A stretch of DNA of 64,000 nt from Cellulophaga lytica DSM 7489 (lineage in GTDB: Bacteria; Bacteroidota; Bacteroidia; Flavobacteriales; Flavobacteriaceae): NCBI RefSeq assembly GCF_000190595.1, contig NC_015167.1, positions 3,332,501-3,396,500 of the forward strand, given 5' to 3'. The notes under the pieces are model-generated. The model was not told the DNA's origin. It was given only the letters and a program-made list of their open reading frames with translations, and did no database searches. The position numbers were made by a program, and so were the translations under genes. Numbering within the stretch: the first letter of the stretch is position 1; every line of letters begins with the position of its first letter. Shown in pieces: positions 36,641 through 46,394 of this stretch.

Positions 36641-38128
36641 ATGGGAGCATCAAAAAAAGTTTTAGGCACCAAGCTTATTAAAAAATTATGGCTAGCTTTT
36701 ATTTTTATTATTTTATTGATGGGAGCTTGTTACGTACTAATAACAGGTTACTTTGCTAATAAATATAATGAAGCTACTATACAAAAAGTAAATGCTAAAG
36801 TAGCAAACCACTTAATTGAAGAAAAGTTTCAAAATGCATCTCCTTTTTTAGAAGATGGTAGCGTAAATAAGCCATTGTTTGGAGACTTAATGCATGATAT
36901 GATGGCGGTTAACCGCAGCATAGAAGTGTATTTACTAGACAGTGCAGGTTCTGTACTTTATTCTGTTGTTTTAAAACATGATGCCAACGAACCTATAAAA
37001 CACGTTTCCCTTGCCCCAATAAAAGAGTTTATTAAAACAGACGGTCAAAAGTATATTTTAGGTGACGACCCAAGAAATACTGAAGAGAAAAAAATATTTT
37101 CTGCTGCTCCTTACAAGAGCGGAGATAAAGAGGGATACATTTATATTATTCTTGCTGGTCAAGAGTTTCAAGCCATAAGTAATAGCTTATTATCTCAGTA
37201 CTTTATGAAGTTAGGTATTGGCGCTACTCTACTAACTATGCTTTTTGCTGCATTATTAGGACTATTAAGTATTTGGTTTTTAACTAAAAACTTACGTGTA
37301 ATGATTAGTACTGTAAATAAATTTCAGGAAGGAGACCGTACTGCCCGTATCAAAAATCCAGAAAAATCTGATATTGAAGTCTTTGCCAATTCTTTTAATG
37401 ATATGGCAGATACTATTGTTAGTAATATTGATAAAATACAATCTGTAGATACATTGCGTAGAGAGTTAATTGCTAATGTATCTCATGATTTAAGAACGCC
37501 ACTTGCTATTTTAAAAGGATATGTAGAAACACTACAAATAAAAAAAGATACACTTACAGAGGTTCAAAAAGATGAGTACTTACAAATTACTCATAATAAT
37601 ATAGATCGTTTATCAAACTTAATAAATCAATTGTTTGAGTATTCTAAACTAGAGTCAGAACAGGTTACTCCTGTAAAAGAACCTTTTTCTATAACAGAAC
37701 TATCTTATGATTTAATTGAGAAATTTAAAGTAATCGCAGAAAAAAAACAAATTACACTTCAAATGGATGCTTCTAATGAAAATAACTTTGTGTATGCAGA
37801 TGTTAGTATGGTAGAACGCGCATTGCAAAATTTATTAGAAAATGCTATTAAGTACACAGAACCAAACGGAAAAGTAACACTAGCTATTAAAAAACAAGCT
37901 AAAAAAGTAGAAATTAATATTACAGATACTGGTGCCGGAATACCAATTAATGAGCAACCATATATTTTTGACAGATACAAGCAGCTAGATAAGTCTGAAA
38001 AGAAAAGAGGTGCTGGCTTAGGTTTAGCCATAGTTAAGAAAATAATGGAAATGCATGACACCACTATTACTGTACTTAGCAAACCTAAAGAAGGCAGCAC
38101 CTTTAGTTTTACATTACCTGTGCACTAA
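36641..38128 (+). CDS. sensor histidine kinase with HAMP
   Basis: 495 residues. Two membrane helices (about 15-38 and 185-210) enclose a periplasmic sensor of about 145 residues. A HAMP linker follows (ISTVNKFQEGDRTARIKNPEKSDIEVF), then HisKA with the phospho-accepting histidine in ANVSHDLRTPLAILKGYVE near 280 and the ATPase domain with NLLENAIKYT, DTGAGIP and GAGLGLAIVKKI. The signal is unknown. It is translated directly after the response regulator. Its last four bases overlap the convergent hisIE gene. Confidence 0.93.
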   Translation: MGASKKVLGTKLIKKLWLAFIFIILLMGACYVLITGYFANKYNEATIQKVNAKVANHLIEEKFQNASPFLEDGSVNKPLFGDLMHDMMAVNRSIEVYLLDSAGSVLYSVVLKHDANEPIKHVSLAPIKEFIKTDGQKYILGDDPRNTEEKKIFSAAPYKSGDKEGYIYIILAGQEFQAISNSLLSQYFMKLGIGATLLTMLFAALLGLLSIWFLTKNLRVMISTVNKFQEGDRTARIKNPEKSDIEVFANSFNDMADTIVSNIDKIQSVDTLRRELIANVSHDLRTPLAILKGYVETLQIKKDTLTEVQKDEYLQITHNNIDRLSNLINQLFEYSKLESEQVTPVKEPFSITELSYDLIEKFKVIAEKKQITLQMDASNENNFVYADVSMVERALQNLLENAIKYTEPNGKVTLAIKKQAKKVEINITDTGAGIPINEQPYIFDRYKQLDKSEKKRGAGLGLAIVKKIMEMHDTTITVLSKPKEGSTFSFTLPVH

Positions 38129-38721
38129 TGTCTATTTTTTAGTACGGTAACAATATCATTTAATTTAAAGCCTTTTGCTTGTAGTAAAATTAAGTAATGA
38201 AATAGTAGATCTGCACTTTCTTCTTTAAATAAGTGGTCATCACTATCTTTTGCTTCAATAACTACTTCTACGGCTTCTTCCCCAACTTTTTGGGCAACTT
38301 TGTTAATTCCTTTTCTATAAAGAGATGCTACATAGCTGTCTTTATTTTCTGGGTTTTCTTTACGGTCTGTAATAATATCTTCTAGCGCTGTTAAAAAGCC
38401 ATAATTGGTTGTGTTTTCTTCTTTCCAACACGTATCTGTACCAGTGTGGCAGGTTGGCCCTACAGGGTTTACAGTAACTAATAAAGAGTCATTATCACAA
38501 TCTACTTTCATATCAACTAAATTTAAAAAGTTTCCACTTTCTTCTCCTTTAGTCCATAAACGGTTTTTACTTCTACTATAAAACGTTACCTTTTTTGTTT
38601 GGTTAGTTTTATCTACCGCTTCTTGGTTCATATAACCAAGCATTAAAACTGTTTTAGTAGCAGCGTCTTGTACTATTGCAGGTACTAAACCATCTGTACT
38701 TTTTGTAAAATCTATTGTCAT
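38125..38721 (-). CDS. hisIE: bifunctional phosphoribosyl-AMP cyclohydrolase / phosphoribosyl-ATP pyrophosphatase
   Basis: 198 residues. The HisI part (about 1-108) has GYMNQEAVDKT, FYSRSKNRLWTKGEESGN, the metal-binding DCDNDSLLV and the cysteines of PTCHTGTDTCW. The HisE part (about 110-198) has YVASLYRKGINKVAQKVGEEAVEVVIEA and ESADLLFHYLILL. It performs steps 2 and 3 of histidine synthesis. Last gene of the operon; 11 bases after hisF. Confidence 0.95.
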   Translation of the reverse strand: MTIDFTKSTDGLVPAIVQDAATKTVLMLGYMNQEAVDKTNQTKKVTFYSRSKNRLWTKGEESGNFLNLVDMKVDCDNDSLLVTVNPVGPTCHTGTDTCWKEENTTNYGFLTALEDIITDRKENPENKDSYVASLYRKGINKVAQKVGEEAVEVVIEAKDSDDHLFKEESADLLFHYLILLQAKGFKLNDIVTVLKNRH

Positions 38722-38732
38722 TTTATATAATA

Positions 38733-39488
38733 TTATAATCTAACTGGTATGCCGTTAGTTTTTAATTCTTCTTTTAATTCTTTTATTTCTATTTCTTTAA
38801 AATGAAAAACACTTGCTGCCAATGCTGCATCTGCTTTACCATCTTTAAAAGTATCTGTAAAATGCTGAATAGAACCTGCACCACCTGAAGCTATAATTGG
38901 AATATTTAGCTCGGTTGATAATTTAGCTAATGCTTCATTAGCAAAACCATCTTTAGTACCGTCATTGTCCATAGACGTAAACAAAATTTCTCCTGCTCCT
39001 CTTTTTTCAACTTCTTTTGCCCAATCAAACAAGTTTAATTCCGTAGGTACTTTACCACCAACCAAATGAACAACCCAGTTGCCATCTATATTTTTAGCAT
39101 CTATGGCAACAACCACACACTGCGATCCAAATTTGGCTGCTAAGTCGTTTATTAATTGTGGATTTTTAACTGCAGATGAATTTATAGATACTTTATCTGC
39201 ACCATTTTGCAACAATATATCTACATCTTCAATTGATGAAATACCACCACCAACAGTAAACGGTATATTTACTTTTTCTGCAACGCGTAAAACTAGGTCT
39301 GCTAATGTTTTTCTACGCTCTTCTGTGGCAGATATATCTAAAAAAACAAGTTCGTCTGCTCCTGTTTTTGCATATATTTCCGCTAATTCTACTGGGTCAC
39401 CAGCATCACGCAAATCCACAAAATTTATTCCTTTTACAGTGCGACCGTTTTTAATATCTAAACACGGAATTATTCTTTTTGTTAACAT
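38733..39488 (-). CDS. hisF: imidazole glycerol phosphate synthase, cyclase subunit
   Basis: 251 residues of TIM-barrel fold. [16 protein letters not shown] carries the first catalytic aspartate (D11) and [11 protein letters not shown] the second (near D130). [13 protein letters not shown] and [15 protein letters not shown] bind the substrate phosphates. With HisH it makes imidazole glycerol phosphate and AICAR. A 70-base gap with a small hairpin separates it from hisA. Confidence 0.96.
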
Positions 39489-39516
39489 AATATTTATGGA
39501 TCATAGAAAAGAGATA

Positions 39517-39536
39517 AAAAATAGACTTCTATTTTT
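39517..39536 (-). repeat. hairpin in the hisA-hisF gap
   Basis: aaaaataga and tctattttt pair perfectly around ct. On the minus strand a T-run follows, so it could be a weak terminator or a processing site lowering expression of hisF and hisIE relative to the upstream genes. Confidence 0.35.
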
Positions 39537-39558
39537 CTGTACTCTCTATTCTAAATTC

Positions 39559-40287
39559 TTATTTATTTAATATAAATTCTTCTAACTGCTTCATAGAAAT
39601 TCTGTTCTCATAAATAGCTTTTCCAATTATGGTACCTTCACAACCAATTTCGGCTAGTTTTGGCAGTTCATCATAAGTAGAAATTCCTCCACTAGCTATT
39701 AGTTTTAAACCTTTTTCTGATGATTGTAAAATTTTAGAATACAAATCAAAAGAAGGTCCTTCTAGCATACCATCTTTACTAATATCTGTACATATAACAT
39801 AGCTTACACCTTGTTTTTGATATGCTTGTATAAATGGCACCAATTCTTCTTTAGACTCTTCTAACCAACCAGAAACAGCTACTTTTTCATCTTTAGCATC
39901 GGCTCCTAAAATAATTTTATTAGCACCAAATTTTTCAAGCCAAAAAGAAAATATCTCTCTATCCTTTACTGCAATACTACCACCAGTTATTTGGTTAGCA
40001 CCACTTTCAAAGGCTATACGTAAATCATCGTCCGACTTTAATCCGCCACCAAAATCTATTTTTAGGTTTGTTTTAGAAGCTATTTGCTCTAAAATCTTAT
40101 GGTTTACTATGTGTTTAGACTTTGCACCGTCTAAATCTACTAAATGTAAATACTCAATACCGTGAGCCTCAAACTCTTTAGCAACTTCTAAAGGGTTTTC
40201 GTTATATATTTTTTTAGTGTTGTAATCTCCTTTAGACAAGCGTACACATTTGCCATCTATAATATCTATTGCTGGTATTATTCTCAT
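39559..40287 (-). CDS. hisA: phosphoribosylformimino-AICAR ribotide isomerase
   Basis: 242 residues of TIM-barrel fold. [22 protein letters not shown] carries the first catalytic aspartate and [20 protein letters not shown] the second. [22 protein letters not shown] and [14 protein letters not shown] are phosphate sites. It opens the ribose of ProFAR (Amadori reaction), the fourth step of the pathway. 65 bases follow hisH. Confidence 0.95.
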
Positions 40288-40352
40288 TTTTGTTTTTTTG
40301 TAAAAAAGTGTAAAGACTTAATTGCTTGTTAACTTTAGACTTAATTAAACTT

Positions 40353-40934
40353 CTACATTTCCAGAAAATTCATCAAAATCTGCTCTCCTACTTCACTACT
40401 TTTTTCTGGGTGAAATTGAGTTCCGTAAAAATTATTTTTTTGTAATGCCGCACTGTAATCTACATCATAATTGGATGTTGCAATGGTTTCGTTAGTAACT
40501 GGAGCATAAAAACTATGAACCATATAAATATGAGATTTCTCTTTTACTTTATTAAAAAGATTTGTTTTTAAGTTTGATATCTCATTCCATCCAATTTGTG
40601 GCACTTTTACCTTGTTTGAAAACTTTACAACATCAACATTAAAAATCTCCAAACCTTTTGTTTTTCCTTCTTCAGATGCATTACACATTAGCTGCATTCC
40701 TAAACAAATACCCAAAACAGGTTGTTTTAAAGTCGGAATTAAAGTATCTAAACCACTAGCACGTAACTTACTCATTGCACTACTAGCCTCACCTACACCA
40801 GGAAAAATAACTTTATCTGCAGCTAAAATATCGTCTACATTATCTGTTAAAACGGCTTCAAAACCTAGTCTTTTTATAGCAAATTTAATGCTCTGTATAT
40901 TTCCTGCTCCGTAATTTATAATTACTATTTTCAT
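40353..40934 (-). CDS. hisH: imidazole glycerol phosphate synthase, glutaminase subunit
   Basis: 193 residues of class I glutamine amidotransferase fold. The nucleophile cysteine lies in LGICLGMQLMCNASEEG near residue 77; the histidine-glutamate pair lies in GTQFHPEKSSEVGEQIL near 175. Opening KIVIINYGAGNIQSIKFAIKRLG is typical HisH. It supplies ammonia to HisF. Confidence 0.95.
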   Translation of the reverse strand: MKIVIINYGAGNIQSIKFAIKRLGFEAVLTDNVDDILAADKVIFPGVGEASSAMSKLRASGLDTLIPTLKQPVLGICLGMQLMCNASEEGKTKGLEIFNVDVVKFSNKVKVPQIGWNEISNLKTNLFNKVKEKSHIYMVHSFYAPVTNETIATSNYDVDYSAALQKNNFYGTQFHPEKSSEVGEQILMNFLEM

Positions 40935-40959
40935 TTTAAACTTTAAGTATTATCACTAT

Positions 40960-42093
40960 TTACAGCATTCCCTTTGTACTAGGTAAAACCATTTTTTCTA
41001 CATCTCTTTTTACCGCCATTTTTATAGCCTTTGCAAACGCTTTAAAAATAGCTTCAATTTTATGATGTTCGTTTATACCTTCTGCTTTTACATTAAGGTT
41101 AGCTTTTGCTCCGTCTGAAAACGATTTAAAAAAGTGCAAAAACATTTCTGTTGGCATATCACCAACCATTTCTCGTTTAAAATCGGCTTCCCAAACCAAC
41201 CAGTTACGACCACCAAAATCAATTGCTACTTGCGCTAAACAGTCGTCCATTGGCAAACAAAAACCATAACGTTCTATTCCTAGTTTTGTACCTAAAGCCT
41301 TAGCAAATACTTCTCCTAAAGCAATAGCAGTATCTTCTATAGTGTGGTGCTCATCTACTTCTAAATCTCCATTTACCTTAATTTCTAAGTCCATTTGACC
41401 GTGACGTGCCAATTGGTCTAACATATGATCAAAGAAAGACAATCCTGTTTTTATGTCACTTTTTCCAGTGCCATCTAAATTTACATTTATGTAAATATCA
41501 GTTTCATTGGTTTTACGTGTAACTTCAGAAACTCTATCTTTTAGTTTTAAGAACTCGTATATTTTCTCCCAGTCATTGCTTTCTAAGGCTATAACATCGT
41601 CTAATTCTTCCCTTTTTACTGTAATTTCCCCGGTACCTAAATTGGTTTCATCATTAATAAAAATACCTTTAGAACCTAAATTTTTAGCTAACTCTATGTC
41701 TGTTAAACGATCACCAATAACAAAAGAGTTTGCTAAATCATATTCAGCAGAAAAATATTCGGTTAATAGGCCTGTCCCAGGTTTACGAGTATTTGCATTT
41801 TCGTGAGGAAAAGTTCGGTCTAAAAAAACCTTATCAAAAACTACACCTTCATTTTCAAAAGACTTTAAAATAAAGTTGTGTACTGGCCAAAATGTATCTT
41901 CAGGAAAAACATCTGTACCCAAGCCATCTTGGTTGGTTATCATTACCAACTCATAATCTAACTCTTTTGCTATTTTTCCTAAATATGTAAATGCTTTTGG
42001 ATAAAAAATCATTTTTTCAAATGCATCTATTTGTTCGTCTACAGTTTCCTTTATTATGGTACCGTCTCTATCTATAAATAATACTTTTTTCAT
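40960..42093 (-). CDS. hisB: bifunctional histidinol-phosphatase / imidazoleglycerol-phosphate dehydratase
   Basis: 377 residues. The N-terminal HAD phosphatase (about 1-165) opens [15 protein letters not shown] (nucleophile D8 and D10) and has [15 protein letters not shown] and [17 protein letters not shown]. The C-terminal dehydratase (about 188-377) has the manganese-binding [15 protein letters not shown] and [20 protein letters not shown]. The fused form is the one known from enterobacteria and Bacteroidota. Steps 6 and 8 of the pathway. Confidence 0.96.
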
Positions 42094-42135
42094 CTTTTAT
42101 AGTTCGTTGTAATTCTTTTATAAAAAGAATTACAG

Positions 42136-43185
42136 TTAGTTATTAATTTGGTTTAGTGCGTTTATTAATTGCTTATTTTCCTTTGGTGTACCTACTGTAA
42201 AACGCAATGTATTTTCACATAAAGGCTGTGTAGTTCTATTACGTATTACTATTCCTTTTTCTAAAAGCTGATTGTATCTTTTTGTAGCATCGTCAACTTT
42301 AGCAAGAATAAAATTAGCGTCAGAAGCATATACTTTTTCGATAAAACTAACTTGAAGTAACACTTTAGATAAAGCTTCTTTTTCTAACATTATTTTAGAT
42401 ACTTCTTGTTTTACAGAATCTATATCTAAAACACGCTCTTTTGCTCGTTGTTGCGTTAATTCGTTTACATTATAAGGAGGTTTAATTTTATTTAAAACCG
42501 ATATAATTTCTTCTGATGCAATACAAATTCCTAATCGTACACCTGCCAAACCATAAGCTTTAGATAAGGTTTGAGTAACAATTAAATTAGGATAATTACC
42601 TAGTTGAGTCACCCAACTCTCTTGTGGTGAAAAATCGATATAGGCTTCATCAACAACCACTAAACCATTAAACTCCTCTAACAACTGATGCATTTTTGCA
42701 GCTGTAAAACTATTGCCAGTTGGGTTGTTTGGCGAGCATAAAAACAAAATTTTACTATTGTTATTTGCTGTAGCTAAAATTTCATCTACATTAGGTTCAA
42801 AATTGGCTGTAAGTAACACCTCTTTATTCTCTATATTATTAATACCAGACAACACCTTGTACATACCATAAGTTGGCGGCAACGTTATAATGTTATCTTC
42901 TTTAGGTTCGCAAAAAGCTCTGTAGATTAAGTCTAAAACTTCATCACTACCATTGCCTAAAAGCAAATTTTCTGTTTTAACACCTTTTTGTTCTGCTAAA
43001 ACAGATTTTAAACTACGCTGTTGCGGATCTGGATACCTGTTTACTCCGTTAGAAAACGGATTCTCATTGGCATCTAAAAAAACCATTTCAGTACCATCAG
43101 AAACATACTCATCTCTAGCAGAAGAATATGGACTAAGTCCTTTTACATTCTCTCTAGTTAATTTATCTAAGTTAAAATCTTTCAT
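42136..43185 (-). CDS. hisC: histidinol-phosphate aminotransferase
   Basis: 349 residues of class II aminotransferase fold. PLP lysine in TQTLSKAYGLAGVRLG near residue 210; other sites LGNGSDEVLDLIYRAF, SPNNPTGNSF and VVVDEAYIDF. Its ATG shares one base with the hisD stop codon (TAATG), so the two are coupled. It makes histidinol phosphate with glutamate as amino donor. Confidence 0.95.
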   Translation of the reverse strand: MKDFNLDKLTRENVKGLSPYSSARDEYVSDGTEMVFLDANENPFSNGVNRYPDPQQRSLKSVLAEQKGVKTENLLLGNGSDEVLDLIYRAFCEPKEDNIITLPPTYGMYKVLSGINNIENKEVLLTANFEPNVDEILATANNNSKILFLCSPNNPTGNSFTAAKMHQLLEEFNGLVVVDEAYIDFSPQESWVTQLGNYPNLIVTQTLSKAYGLAGVRLGICIASEEIISVLNKIKPPYNVNELTQQRAKERVLDIDSVKQEVSKIMLEKEALSKVLLQVSFIEKVYASDANFILAKVDDATKRYNQLLEKGIVIRNRTTQPLCENTLRFTVGTPKENKQLINALNQINN

Positions 43186-44468
43186 TATTTTAAACTCTTT
43201 AAACGTAATGTAACTGCATTTTTGTGTGCTTGTAAACCTTCTGCATCTGCCATTAACTCTATAGCTTCACCTATTTCTTTTATACCTTGTTCAGATATTT
43301 TTTGAAACGTAATACTCTTGGTAAAACTATCTAAATTAACACCACTGTATTGTTTTGCATAACCGTTTGTTGGTAAAGTATGGTTGGTTCCCGATGCATA
43401 ATCACCTGCACTCTCTGGCGTATAATTGCCAATAAATACAGACCCAGCATTTTCAATTGTGTTTAATACATAATCCTCATTTTCTACACAAACTATAAAG
43501 TGCTCTGGAGCATATTCATTAATCAATTGCATAGCCGTTTCTAGCGTTTCTATGTATATAAGCTTACTATTTGCTATGGCCTGTGTTGCTATTTCTACAC
43601 GTGGTAAAACTGCTAATTGCTTTTCTAACTCAGTTTCTACGTCAGAAATCATTTGTTTTGAAGTAGATACTAATATCACTTGACTATCTGTACCGTGTTC
43701 TGCCTGACTTAATAAGTCTGATGCTACAAATGCTGCATTAGCTGTATCATCTGCTAAAACTAACAATTCACTTGGTCCTGCTGGCATATCTATAGCTACA
43801 CCATATTTGGTTGCTATTTGTTTAGCTACGGTAACAAATTGGTTGCCTGGACCAAATATTTTATAAACTTGTGGTATTGTTTGTGTACCAAACGTCATAG
43901 CTGCAATAGCTTGTATACCACCAACTTTATATATTTTAGTTACACCACATAAATTTGCTGCATACAAAATAGCGGGATTAATTTTGCCTTCTTTGTTTGG
44001 AGGAGAACACAATACAATTTCTTTACAACCTGCTATGTTTGCTGGTGTTGCCAACATTAGTATTGTAGAAAATAATGGTGCAGTACCACCAGGAATGTAT
44101 AAACCAACTTTTTGAATTGGTCGTTTTTCTTGCCAACAATCTACTCCGTTTACTGTTTGTATACTTACCTTACTCGTCTCTTGTGCCTTATGAAAAGCTT
44201 CAATATTACTTTTTGCTAATTGTATTGCTTTTTTTAGTTCTTCTGATACTAATTTTTCTGCTTCAACCAATTCTTCAACACTGACAATAGTAGATTGCAA
44301 AGAAACACCATCAAACTTAGTAGTGTACTTATTTACAGCTTTATCACCATCAGTTCTAACCTCATTAAAAACAGAAACTACAGTACCTTCTATATCTGCA
44401 ACAGTTTGTGTTGGTCTTTCTAAAACTTGCTTCCAATCTGCAACAGCTGGATTATCAATCTTATTCAT
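43185..44468 (-). CDS. hisD: histidinol dehydrogenase
   Basis: 427 residues. Key stretches are GLYIPGGTAPLFSTILMLATPANIAGC, GGIQAIAAMTFGTQTIPQVYKIFGPGNQFV, the zinc and base region QAEHGTDSQVIL and EYAPEHFIVCVEN, and GSVFIGNYTPESAGDYASGTNHTLPT. It oxidises histidinol to histidine in two steps with NAD. The ATG overlaps the hisG stop by one base (TAATG). Confidence 0.96.
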   Translation of the reverse strand: MNKIDNPAVADWKQVLERPTQTVADIEGTVVSVFNEVRTDGDKAVNKYTTKFDGVSLQSTIVSVEELVEAEKLVSEELKKAIQLAKSNIEAFHKAQETSKVSIQTVNGVDCWQEKRPIQKVGLYIPGGTAPLFSTILMLATPANIAGCKEIVLCSPPNKEGKINPAILYAANLCGVTKIYKVGGIQAIAAMTFGTQTIPQVYKIFGPGNQFVTVAKQIATKYGVAIDMPAGPSELLVLADDTANAAFVASDLLSQAEHGTDSQVILVSTSKQMISDVETELEKQLAVLPRVEIATQAIANSKLIYIETLETAMQLINEYAPEHFIVCVENEDYVLNTIENAGSVFIGNYTPESAGDYASGTNHTLPTNGYAKQYSGVNLDSFTKSITFQKISEQGIKEIGEAIELMADAEGLQAHKNAVTLRLKSLK

Positions 44469-45325
44469 TATAGTACCATTTTTTCAATTGGACAAACCAA
44501 AATACCTTCTGCGCCTTCTTTTTTTAACTCCTGAATTACTTCCCAGAATTTATCTTTATTTATTACAGTGTGCACAGAGCTCCAACCTTCTTCTGCCAAT
44601 GGCAATACAGTAGGGCTTCGCATTCCTGGTAATAAAGATATAATAGTTTCTAGCTTTTCATTAGGAGCATTTAAAAGTACATATTTAGATTGTCTAGCTC
44701 TTAAAACAGATTCTATTCTAAACTCTAACTGACTTAAAATCTCTTTTCGCTCTTCAGATATTTTTGGAGAAACTGCTAAAACAGCTTCACTAGTTAACAT
44801 TACTTCTACCTCTTTAAGGTTGTTTTTAAATAATGTACTACCACTAGATACAATATCACAAATACCGTCTGCCAAACCAATATTTGGTGCAATTTCTACA
44901 GAACCATTAATAATGTGTAAATCTGCTGTAACACCTTTAGATGCTAAATAATTTTTTACTGTATTTGGGTATGATGTTGCAATACGTTTACCCTGAAAAT
45001 CTTGTACAGATGTATATTTAAAAGATTTAGGTACTGCTAACGATACTTTACACTTAGAAAATCCTAATCTTTCTGAAAATGTAATGTCTTCTCCTTTTTC
45101 TATTAACACATTTTCTCCTATTATAGCAATGTCTACTACTCCGTCTCTTAAATACTGAGGAATATCACCATTTCTTAGGTAAAAAACTTCCATTGGAAAA
45201 TTTCTTGAAGATGCTTTTAGCTGATCTTTACCGTTGTCTATAGAGATACCACAGTCTTTTAAAATAGCTATGGAATCTTCATTTAAACGTCCGCTTTTCT
45301 GAATTGCAATTCTAATTTTAGTCAT
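44468..45325 (-). CDS. hisG: ATP phosphoribosyltransferase, long form
   Basis: 285 residues, the long form with a C-terminal regulatory ACT-like domain (about 215-285) that binds histidine. The catalytic part opens KIRIAIQKSGRLNEDSIAIL and has DIAIIGENVL near 85 and the PRPP loop ADGICDIVSSGSTLFKNNL near 155. It is the committed step and a target of feedback inhibition; expression is governed by the attenuator directly upstream. First structural gene of the operon. Confidence 0.96.
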   Translation of the reverse strand: MTKIRIAIQKSGRLNEDSIAILKDCGISIDNGKDQLKASSRNFPMEVFYLRNGDIPQYLRDGVVDIAIIGENVLIEKGEDITFSERLGFSKCKVSLAVPKSFKYTSVQDFQGKRIATSYPNTVKNYLASKGVTADLHIINGSVEIAPNIGLADGICDIVSSGSTLFKNNLKEVEVMLTSEAVLAVSPKISEERKEILSQLEFRIESVLRARQSKYVLLNAPNEKLETIISLLPGMRSPTVLPLAEEGWSSVHTVINKDKFWEVIQELKKEGAEGILVCPIEKMVL

Positions 45326-45361
45326 TCTTTTTTTAGTATGTGTTTAAGAAATCAAAATGGA

Positions 45362-45398
45362 TAAAAACAAAAAACCCGCTTGATTTCTCAAACAGGTT
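45362..45398 (-). terminator. his attenuator terminator
   Basis: On the minus strand an 11-pair stem (45388-45398 with 45373-45383, two G-U pairs) closes a GAAA tetraloop and is followed by six T residues. It lies between the leader peptide and hisG. Its 3' arm contains ATCAAGCG (45377-45384), which also occurs in the leader peptide (45435-45442); thus the 5' arm can pair with either copy. Pairing with the leader copy prevents the terminator. Confidence 0.88.
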
Positions 45399-45428
45399 AG
45401 ATATATGTTTAAACACGGCAAAACACTT

Positions 45429-45485
45429 CTAGCTCGCTTGATAGCAAGGTGTAAAGTGATGATGATGTGTGTTTTTATTTCTCAT
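45429..45485 (-). CDS. hisL: histidine operon leader peptide
   Basis: 18 codons, ATG 45485 to TAG 45429, encoding MRNKNTHHHHFTPCYQAS. Four consecutive His codons (45456-45467) are followed 15-21 bases later by the copy of ATCAAGCG that acts as antiterminator arm. A ribosome stalled at the His codons for lack of charged tRNA leaves this arm free; a ribosome reaching the stop codon covers it. This is the sensing element of attenuation, and the order leader, terminator, hisG supports it. Too short for normal gene calling. Confidence 0.9.
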   Translation of the reverse strand: MRNKNTHHHHFTPCYQAS

Positions 45486-45578
45486 TATGGTGTAAAAGTA
45501 AAACTTATTTCTTTTATAAAAAAGAGAATTTATAATTTTAGTTCACTATTGATAATTTCTTAACAAATGATTGTAAAT

Positions 45579-46394
45579 TTATTGGTTTCCTAAAATTAAT
45601 GGTAAACCAGAGTCTCCACTACCAATTACAATTACTTTAGCGTTTGGAGATTCAGACAATTTTATAGTAGCATCTATACCTTTGTCTTGCAAAATTTTAT
45701 CTGTTAACGATGCACTTAATATTTTGTTTGCATTTGCTTTACCTTGTGCTTCAATAGTTACTTTTTCGGCCTCTTTTTTTGCCGTTACCAGTCTAAATTC
45801 ATATTCTAAAGACTCTTGTTCTTGTTTTAATTTACGCTCTATGGCATCTTTAATTGTTGGCGGCAATGTTACATCACGCACTAAAATTTCGTTTAATTGA
45901 ATGTATTCACCATCTACAATTTTTTTTGTTTCATCAAAAATTTCTTGCTGTATAGCGTCTCTTTTACTAGAATATAACTGCTCTGGCGTATAACGCCCAA
46001 CAACAGAACGGGCTGCAGATCTTATAGTTGGTAATAACACTCTTTGTATATAATCTTCGCCTTTTTCTTGGTGTAACTTTCCTAATTCATTACGTTTTGG
46101 TTGAAACCAAGCTGAAGCTTCTAATTTAATATCTAAACCGTTGCTAGAAAGTACATTCATTTTTTCTAATACCTCTTGCTGACGTACTTCATAAATATAT
46201 ACTTTATTCCAAGGAGCTACCACATGAAACCCTTCTCCCATTGGAGGCTCATCTGTAACAACACCATCTCCAAGAGTCTCGTATAAAACTCCTGCGTGAC
46301 CAGAATCTATTGTCACTGCTGATTTAGAGATAATAACAATAATTAGTATGATAACAAATAATACAGGTAATGCAATTTTTGGTAATCTTTCCAT
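45579..46394 (-). CDS. SPFH/prohibitin-family membrane protein
   Basis: 271 residues. One N-terminal membrane helix (IALPVLFVIILIIVIISK) followed by the SPFH domain: TIDSGHAGVLYETLGDGV, GFHVVAPWNKVYIYEVRQQEV and VGRYTPEQLYSSKRDAIQQEI. A coiled coil about 175-220 (KDAIERKLKQEQESLEYEFRLVTAKKEAEKV) supports ring assembly, as in prohibitin and HflK/C. No associated FtsH gene is here. It is 8 bases downstream of the VWA gene. Confidence 0.88.
   Translation of the reverse strand: MERLPKIALPVLFVIILIIVIISKSAVTIDSGHAGVLYETLGDGVVTDEPPMGEGFHVVAPWNKVYIYEVRQQEVLEKMNVLSSNGLDIKLEASAWFQPKRNELGKLHQEKGEDYIQRVLLPTIRSAARSVVGRYTPEQLYSSKRDAIQQEIFDETKKIVDGEYIQLNEILVRDVTLPPTIKDAIERKLKQEQESLEYEFRLVTAKKEAEKVTIEAQGKANANKILSASLTDKILQDKGIDATIKLSESPNAKVIVIGSGDSGLPLILGNQ

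Follow-up and report, generated by a model that had tools for sequence, protein, structure and literature searches.

Upstream of the histidine operon of Cellulophaga lytica lies a short open reading frame with a run of histidine codons, followed by a terminator-like hairpin, and the question raised by this locus is whether a ribosome reading that frame decides if the his genes are transcribed. Ribosome-mediated attenuation of his operons is textbook control, and an initial annotation of this DNA had proposed the same logic here. The window, that is, the whole 64-kb stretch that was analyzed, belongs to a genome made up of a single contig of 3.77 Mb. The HisG encoded at the locus is 99% identical to HisG of Cellulophaga omnivescoria and of an uncultured Cellulophaga. 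Taken together, the conserved His run and both of the alternative RNA pairings described below support the proposed logic, and the operon is very probably controlled by transcription attenuation of the trp/his type. The elements, which are all encoded on the minus strand, are given in the order in which they would be transcribed.

45579-46394, minus strand: SPFH/Band 7 gene, the upstream neighbor, on the same strand as the hairpin
45521..45523, minus strand: predicted -33 promoter element TTT, 20 nt before the -7 box (T conservation in relatives)
45493..45500, minus strand: predicted -7 element of the promoter, TACTTTTA (consensus TAnnTTTG), which precedes the leader ATG by 7 nt (motif in relatives)
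45429..45485, minus strand: leader peptide frame MRNKNTHHHHFTPCYQAS, 18 codons and a TAG stop (read from the window; recurs in relatives)
45456..45467, minus strand: sensor, four consecutive His codons CAT CAT CAT CAC (run kept in relatives)
45424..45458, minus strand: predicted protector hairpin P1, which would enclose the antiterminator strand (minimum free energy fold; covariation)
45435..45442, minus strand: region 2, antiterminator strand ATCAAGCG, within the Tyr-Gln-Ala codons (helix with region 3; GCG bias)
45388..45398, minus strand: region 3, terminator 5' arm AACCTGTTTGA, partner of region 2 or region 4 (alignment pairing)
45373..45383, minus strand: region 4, terminator 3' arm TCAAGCGGGTT (paired with region 3 in the alignment)
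45369..45374, minus strand: terminator T run of six T, two of them shared with the stem
44468..45325, minus strand: hisG, first gene of the controlled operon (TIGR00070, E 1.1e-54)
38125..44468, minus strand: hisD, hisC, bifunctional hisB, hisH, hisA, hisF, and hisIE, the remaining operon (NCBIfam matches)

The leader peptide and its histidine codons

The leader frame runs from an ATG at 45485-45483 to a TAG at 45431-45429, and its stop codon lies 103 nt before hisG. No other ATG frame of up to 45 codons in the 64 kb contains four His codons in succession, and 10 shuffles of the window produced none. The coordinates that the initial annotation gave for the ATG, frame, His codons, stop, repeats, and hairpin all proved right when re-read. 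Conservation was assessed in a set of 81 sequences (76 distinct) made up of the window and the best 80 of at least 559 confirmed hisG loci. These 80 loci come mostly from Flavobacteriaceae genera, together with some metagenome bins labeled Bacteroidia or Bacteroidetes only.

Both the leader frame and the terminator recur in all 81 sequences, and the distance from the ATG to the end of the terminator is 117 to 132 nt throughout. The initial annotation had named conservation of the His codons as a test of its reading, and this was upheld: HHH or HHHH is present in 79 of the 81, and the remaining two carry the interrupted runs YHH and HRHH. The run starts at codon 7 in 80 sequences and at codon 8 in one (L015). 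Its length is 9 nt in 54 sequences and 12 nt in 27, a difference of a whole codon, and exactly five codons separate it from the Gln-Ala place in every sequence. The frame, the whole-codon length differences, and the spacing suggest that the leader is translated.

Codon choice at the Gln-Ala place is equally strict. The Ala codon is GCG in 79/81 sequences and GCA in 2/81, compared with a GCG share of 12.2% among the 1471 Ala codons of the hisG genes at the 80 loci. This preference likely arises because GCG belongs to the RNA strand that pairs with the terminator 5' arm. In three relatives (L007, L019, and L024), the Gln codon of the antiterminator strand is TAG, which moves the stop three codons earlier and turns the RNA pair into a G-U pair; the strand is still able to pair.

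Terminator, antiterminator strand, and protector hairpin

The terminator hairpin is made up of 11 pairs, two of them G-U, closed by a GAAA loop. It is the only terminator-like site in 45300-45700, where shuffles give a mean of 0.1, and the RNA from 45490 to 45326 folds better than 200 of 200 shuffles (z -3.74). The antiterminator sequence ATCAAGCG occurs a second time at 45384-45377. On its own this repeat is weak evidence, because 259 of 2000 shuffles of these 123 nt contain an 8-base direct repeat of some kind, and its weight comes from conservation. Across the 76 distinct sequences of the alignment, the terminator is paired in 100% of cells and the antiterminator helix of regions 2 and 3 in 94.2%, while slid controls of the latter reach at most 49.7%. 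The two alternative pairings, whose conservation had been set as a test, are thus both kept.

In the initial annotation, covariation of the paired 8-mers had been suggested as a check. Within the family alignment no antiterminator pair shows a change in both partners, and region 3 varies too little there for covariation to prove this helix; between families, however, the strands differ and the His-run leader stays. The switch strand had also been placed inside the Gln-Ala codons, which is true here, but its place within the frame varies elsewhere and its distance from the His codons varies less. From the 81-sequence alignment RNAalifold reported the terminator alone, and P1 and the antiterminator were counted as named helices instead.

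The initial annotation named the leader, the His run, the repeat, and the terminator but missed the promoter box and a covarying hairpin, P1. The outer stem of P1 is formed by CACTTT (45458-45453) with GAAGTG (45429-45424) and the inner stem by CTTGC (45448-45444) with GCGAG (45437-45433). The hairpin would thereby join the last His codon and the two codons that follow it to a segment that runs from the third base of the final sense codon through the stop to five bases beyond it. P1 is paired in 85.8% of cells, compared with at most 55.0% in slid controls, and 38 cells are changed on both sides, compared with 8.9 in shuffles. Its counts of paired cells and both-sided cells and its covariation score were each reached by none of 500 shuffles. 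Weaker measures are the six both-sided pairs, which 16 of 500 shuffles reached, and the count of pair types, which 86 of 500 reached. P1 is well supported rather than proven, because shared ancestry can raise such scores and a set of relatives may outdo shuffles without any structure.

Just after the leader stop, most relatives outside Aquimarina share a conserved TGTATTGT(A/T)GTA (45414-45425, alignment columns 64-77). Except for its first two bases, it lies outside the pairings described here, and it may be an RNA polymerase pause site.

Predicted promoter placement and modeled ribosome position

Translation starts in these bacteria differ from those in E. coli, and the promoter of the leader is predicted to lie almost against its start codon. 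A TAnnTTTG or TAnnTTTA box precedes the leader ATG in 71 of the 81 sequences, by 7 nt in 60 and by 8 nt in 11. The three positions of the -33 TTT are T in 71, 71, and 70 of the 71 box-bearing sequences. In Flavobacterium psychrophilum, the available text of one study locates the box at -12 to -5 (PMC9723704), and from this position and a box 7 to 8 nt before the ATG, a 5' UTR of only about 3 to 4 nt is predicted. The analysis thus predicts that the leader mRNA is almost leaderless in the Cellulophaga-Maribacter-Muricauda group, with the transcription start read from the motif. A box only 7 nt before the ATG would leave no room for a Shine-Dalgarno site. Leaderless mRNAs make up 5.5% in F. psychrophilum (PMC9723704), and 5' UTRs under 10 nt make up about 3.7% in Bacteroides (PMC7366714).

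The box is absent at that place in 10 of the 81 sequences (L060, L065, L069-L071, L073, and L075-L078), which include eight Aquimarina or Aquimarina-like loci and, among the others, Spongiivirga (L077). The same 10 loci bear on a quite different explanation of the hairpin, in which it is the plain terminator of the upstream SPFH/Band 7 gene and the His frame arose by chance. The gene does share the strand of the hairpin and lies 180 nt ahead of it, and a homologue is found on that strand within 2 kb in 70 of the 80 loci. However, the 10 box-less loci are the ones without the SPFH gene; the closest frame reaching 100 aa is encoded there on the opposite strand, and they keep the leader and the terminator all the same, which speaks against a terminator of the upstream gene. 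The conserved leader spacing and codon choice also argue against this explanation, as does the conserved promoter motif between the SPFH gene and the leader, and we regard it as very improbable.

How ribosome position could act on the attenuator was explored with a folding model, while the elements themselves, their conservation, their spacing, and the promoter motif come from sequence and comparison. RNA was folded up to region 3 at 25 C, with all RNA through the 11th nt beyond the A-site codon masked as an assumed ribosome footprint. For the window, the modeled probability of the antiterminator is 0.88 when the A site holds the first His codon and 0.97 when it holds the last; the probability falls to 0.05 two codons further on and to 0 at the stop. 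With no ribosome the antiterminator is at 0 and P1 at 0.98. With the ribosome at the last His codon, the modeled antiterminator exceeds 0.5 in all 81 sequences, a count that drops to 26/81 two codons on and to 0/81 four codons on. In this model, a ribosome on the His codons would therefore free the antiterminator strand and one at the stop codon would hide it. The ribosome-free fold favors the antiterminator in 49/81 and P1 in 31/81, so the default state may differ between species; the outer six pairs of P1 have a mean probability above 0.5 in 31/81, the window included.

When region 4 is included in the model, the terminator wins at equilibrium in every ribosome state, with a mean probability of 0.97 to 1.00. 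Since this holds even with a ribosome on the His codons, antitermination must depend on timing. The same result lends something to the view that a translated leader acts otherwise, through reinitiation or coupling into hisG, through Rho, or through control of hisG translation, with the terminator as a constant drain. Leader genes have been proposed to raise expression by reinitiation, but the effect peaks at gaps of about 10 to 14 nt (PMC4833913), and the stop-to-hisG gap here is 103 nt. Region 2 and P1 are, moreover, conserved in a form suited to switching a terminator. Such other modes of action are, in our judgment, improbable.

Under attenuation, the inferred steps are the transcription start, translation, stalling, and the effect on transcription. 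Transcription would start about 3 nt before the leader ATG, and a ribosome would load beside the 5' end of the RNA. When charged tRNA-His is scarce, the ribosome would wait at one of the four His codons, where it would cover the 5' arm of P1 but leave region 2 exposed, as region 2 begins just past its front edge. Region 2 could then catch region 3 as it emerges from RNA polymerase, the terminator would form too late, and the his genes would be transcribed. When histidine is plentiful, the ribosome would proceed over region 2 to the stop, region 3 would pair with region 4, and transcription would end before hisG. With no ribosome on the leader, P1 of C. lytica would hold region 2 and the terminator would form.

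Occurrence in the Bacteroidota and relation to known systems

A hisG search of 158 genomes of the same class, Bacteroidia, gave 69 matches, with the 89 genomes without a match standing outside the counts. The upstream regions of 68 were read, the window's own genome being excluded and four coming from its family. A His-run leader precedes hisG in 61 of these 68 genomes and 28 of 32 families, compared with 49 of 1360 shuffles (3.6%); without the window's own family, the counts are 57/64 genomes and 27/31 families. At this background rate of His-run frames in shuffles, one isolated match in a distant genome is weak evidence. The leader was not found in seven of the 68 (L087, L114, L126, L127, L140, L148, and L149). 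Exact -7 boxes lie within 45 nt of 41 of the 61 leaders, compared with 2.2 expected. Their distances range from 4 to 37 nt with a median of 18, so starts that are nearly leaderless are no general feature of the class. A few of these frames were taken from an upstream in-frame start (e.g., L117, L109, and L134), which makes their promoter distances unreliable.

A terminator under -8 kcal/mol follows 51 of the 61 leaders, 6 have a weak one only, and none was found after the other 4. In seven of the loci (L144-L147, L110, L123, and L125), a His-rich leader stands before hisG and the intrinsic terminator is weak or not found; control may act otherwise there. Tested with 200 shuffles each, pairing of regions 2 and 3 is significant at p <=0.05 for 30 of the 51 strong terminators, 13 of these at p <=0.005, and 21 fall short of p 0.05. 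The 30 significant pairings are spread over 17 of 24 families and use different strands from family to family, such as GGTAAG with CTTACC and TCAAGCG with CGTTTGA. What varies less is distance. Pairing begins at a median of 16 nt beyond the last His codon (sd 4.5), with 20 of the 30 cases falling at 12 to 17 nt; relative to the stop codon, the position of the first paired base scatters more widely (sd 9.2). With the hidden stretch of RNA extended one codon at a time, region 3 paired with RNA upstream of it at 0.66 for the last His codon, compared with 0.43 for shuffled spacers, which themselves pair considerably. The values were 0.53 and 0.42 two codons on and 0.41 and 0.39 three codons on, so that real spacers exceed shuffled ones as far as two codons past the last His but no further.

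Beyond this, a covariance model of the 81 sequences was run on 296 genomes of the order and found a match in 140 at E <=0.001, a count in which near-threshold matches may be chance. Of the 140, 73 belong to the window's own family; 156 of the 296 gave no match, and presence throughout the family is not implied. In other classes of the phylum, a His-run frame, judged as in the class survey, was seen in 12 of 20 loci picked among 95 hits, a raw count. These surveys invite a broader proposal, to which we give somewhat less than even chances: that his attenuation is ancestral in the Bacteroidota and phylum-wide, ruled mainly by a spacing of about 12 to 17 nt between the last His codon and the antiterminator strand, with the front edge of the ribosome as the ruler and both strands drifting together, and that the Cellulophaga-Maribacter-Muricauda group loads ribosomes at the 5' end, near-leaderless and free of Shine-Dalgarno sites.

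Leaders of similar appearance were seen before other amino-acid genes. The trp operon of C. lytica itself has a leader MKITTNIWWWNNLRQTS (L155, upstream of G000:C1:600482) with TATATTTG 5 nt before its ATG, and a box lies 4 to 8 nt before a WWW leader of the trp operon in 11 of 13 genomes examined, this one included. Pairing between that trp leader and the 5' arm of its terminator is only weak (-4.7 kcal/mol), but by eye the sequence TCACGAC, in the terminator loop and 3' arm, reverse-complements GTCGTGA at the end of the leader. Before pheA of the same genome (L197, upstream of G000:C1:2231624), the leader MNTRYFWNGFYFYFFFKRGTGLL carries in its last codons GTACGGGACTG, which pairs with the terminator 5' arm at -15.1 kcal/mol, and a Phe-rich leader precedes pheA in 9 of 10 genomes examined, again with C. 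lytica among them. Upstream of the aspartokinase-homoserine dehydrogenase gene, relatives (L206-L208 and L211) have Thr- and Ile-rich short frames such as MDSQFNISTFYIACDTTITFSTTTPLG; in C. lytica (L205) such a frame was seen by eye only with a TTG start. One of 12 ilvD upstream regions examined (L173) has an Ile/Leu-rich short frame, MRVNNVILSIIILLCQL, shortly after a TACATTAG box, and among the same 12 no clear leader was found in that of C. lytica.

Older work by Vitreschak et al. in 2004 reportedly predicted attenuators in Bacteroidetes/Chlorobi. The his operon attenuator of E. coli and Salmonella is Rfam RF00514. No Rfam family reached its gathering score in the 64-kb window, and the Rfam his leader had no match in 45300-45560 even at E up to 10; a weak Trp_leader hit there scored 13.7 bits compared with 41. 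The latter interval gave 11 weak matches, no T-box among them, which leaves little for a T-box or another RNA that senses uncharged tRNA-His or histidine directly, even though some Firmicutes and Actinobacteria regulate his genes through T-boxes, as the accessible text of PMC9413887 describes. The conserved feature here is, instead, a run of His codons, and direct sensing of this kind is hardly credible.

Ribosome-mediated attenuation, by comparison, has close parallels. The E. coli and Salmonella attenuator likewise places a His-codon leader, a terminator, and an alternative pairing before the his operon (logic outlined in the available part of PMC9413887). It has seven His codons to the three or four found here, where the antiterminator strand lies inside the frame and the promoter box 7 nt before the leader ATG. 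The run was initially thought short, and four codons is correct for C. lytica, but short runs are ordinary: in the accessible text of the same source, the his attenuators of the Bacillus cereus group, Peptostreptococcaceae, and Erysipelotrichales combine three to five consecutive His codons with a terminator and an antiterminator (PMC9413887). Those are Gram-positive Firmicutes, and the likeness is one of description. Within the same family as C. lytica, strong clues of leader-peptide attenuation before amino-acid biosynthesis operons were described for F. psychrophilum (PMC9723704, available text), the same proposed mechanism. That text names no his leader, alternative pairing, or start geometry, and the word "histidine" occurs 0 times in its main text. 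For the start geometry, the nearest likeness is the ilvBNC attenuator of Corynebacterium glutamicum, in which the leader start codon is one nucleotide from the transcription start; this is, however, an actinobacterial system with branched-chain codons and a three-hairpin model (PMC11857589, in the portion available). A search mainly of openly available papers found none describing the present his element in Bacteroidota. Set against the known his attenuators, its own traits would be the near-leaderless start, the in-frame antiterminator strand, and the codon-exact spacing.

The element would extend a textbook form of control to bacteria in which no Rfam family reports it, as searched in the window. 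At 117 to 132 nt, it is a compact and very regular attenuator that suits experiment, and it points to leader peptides that start beside the 5' end of the RNA. Its fixed spacing may also offer a measure of the ribosome's front edge in vivo.
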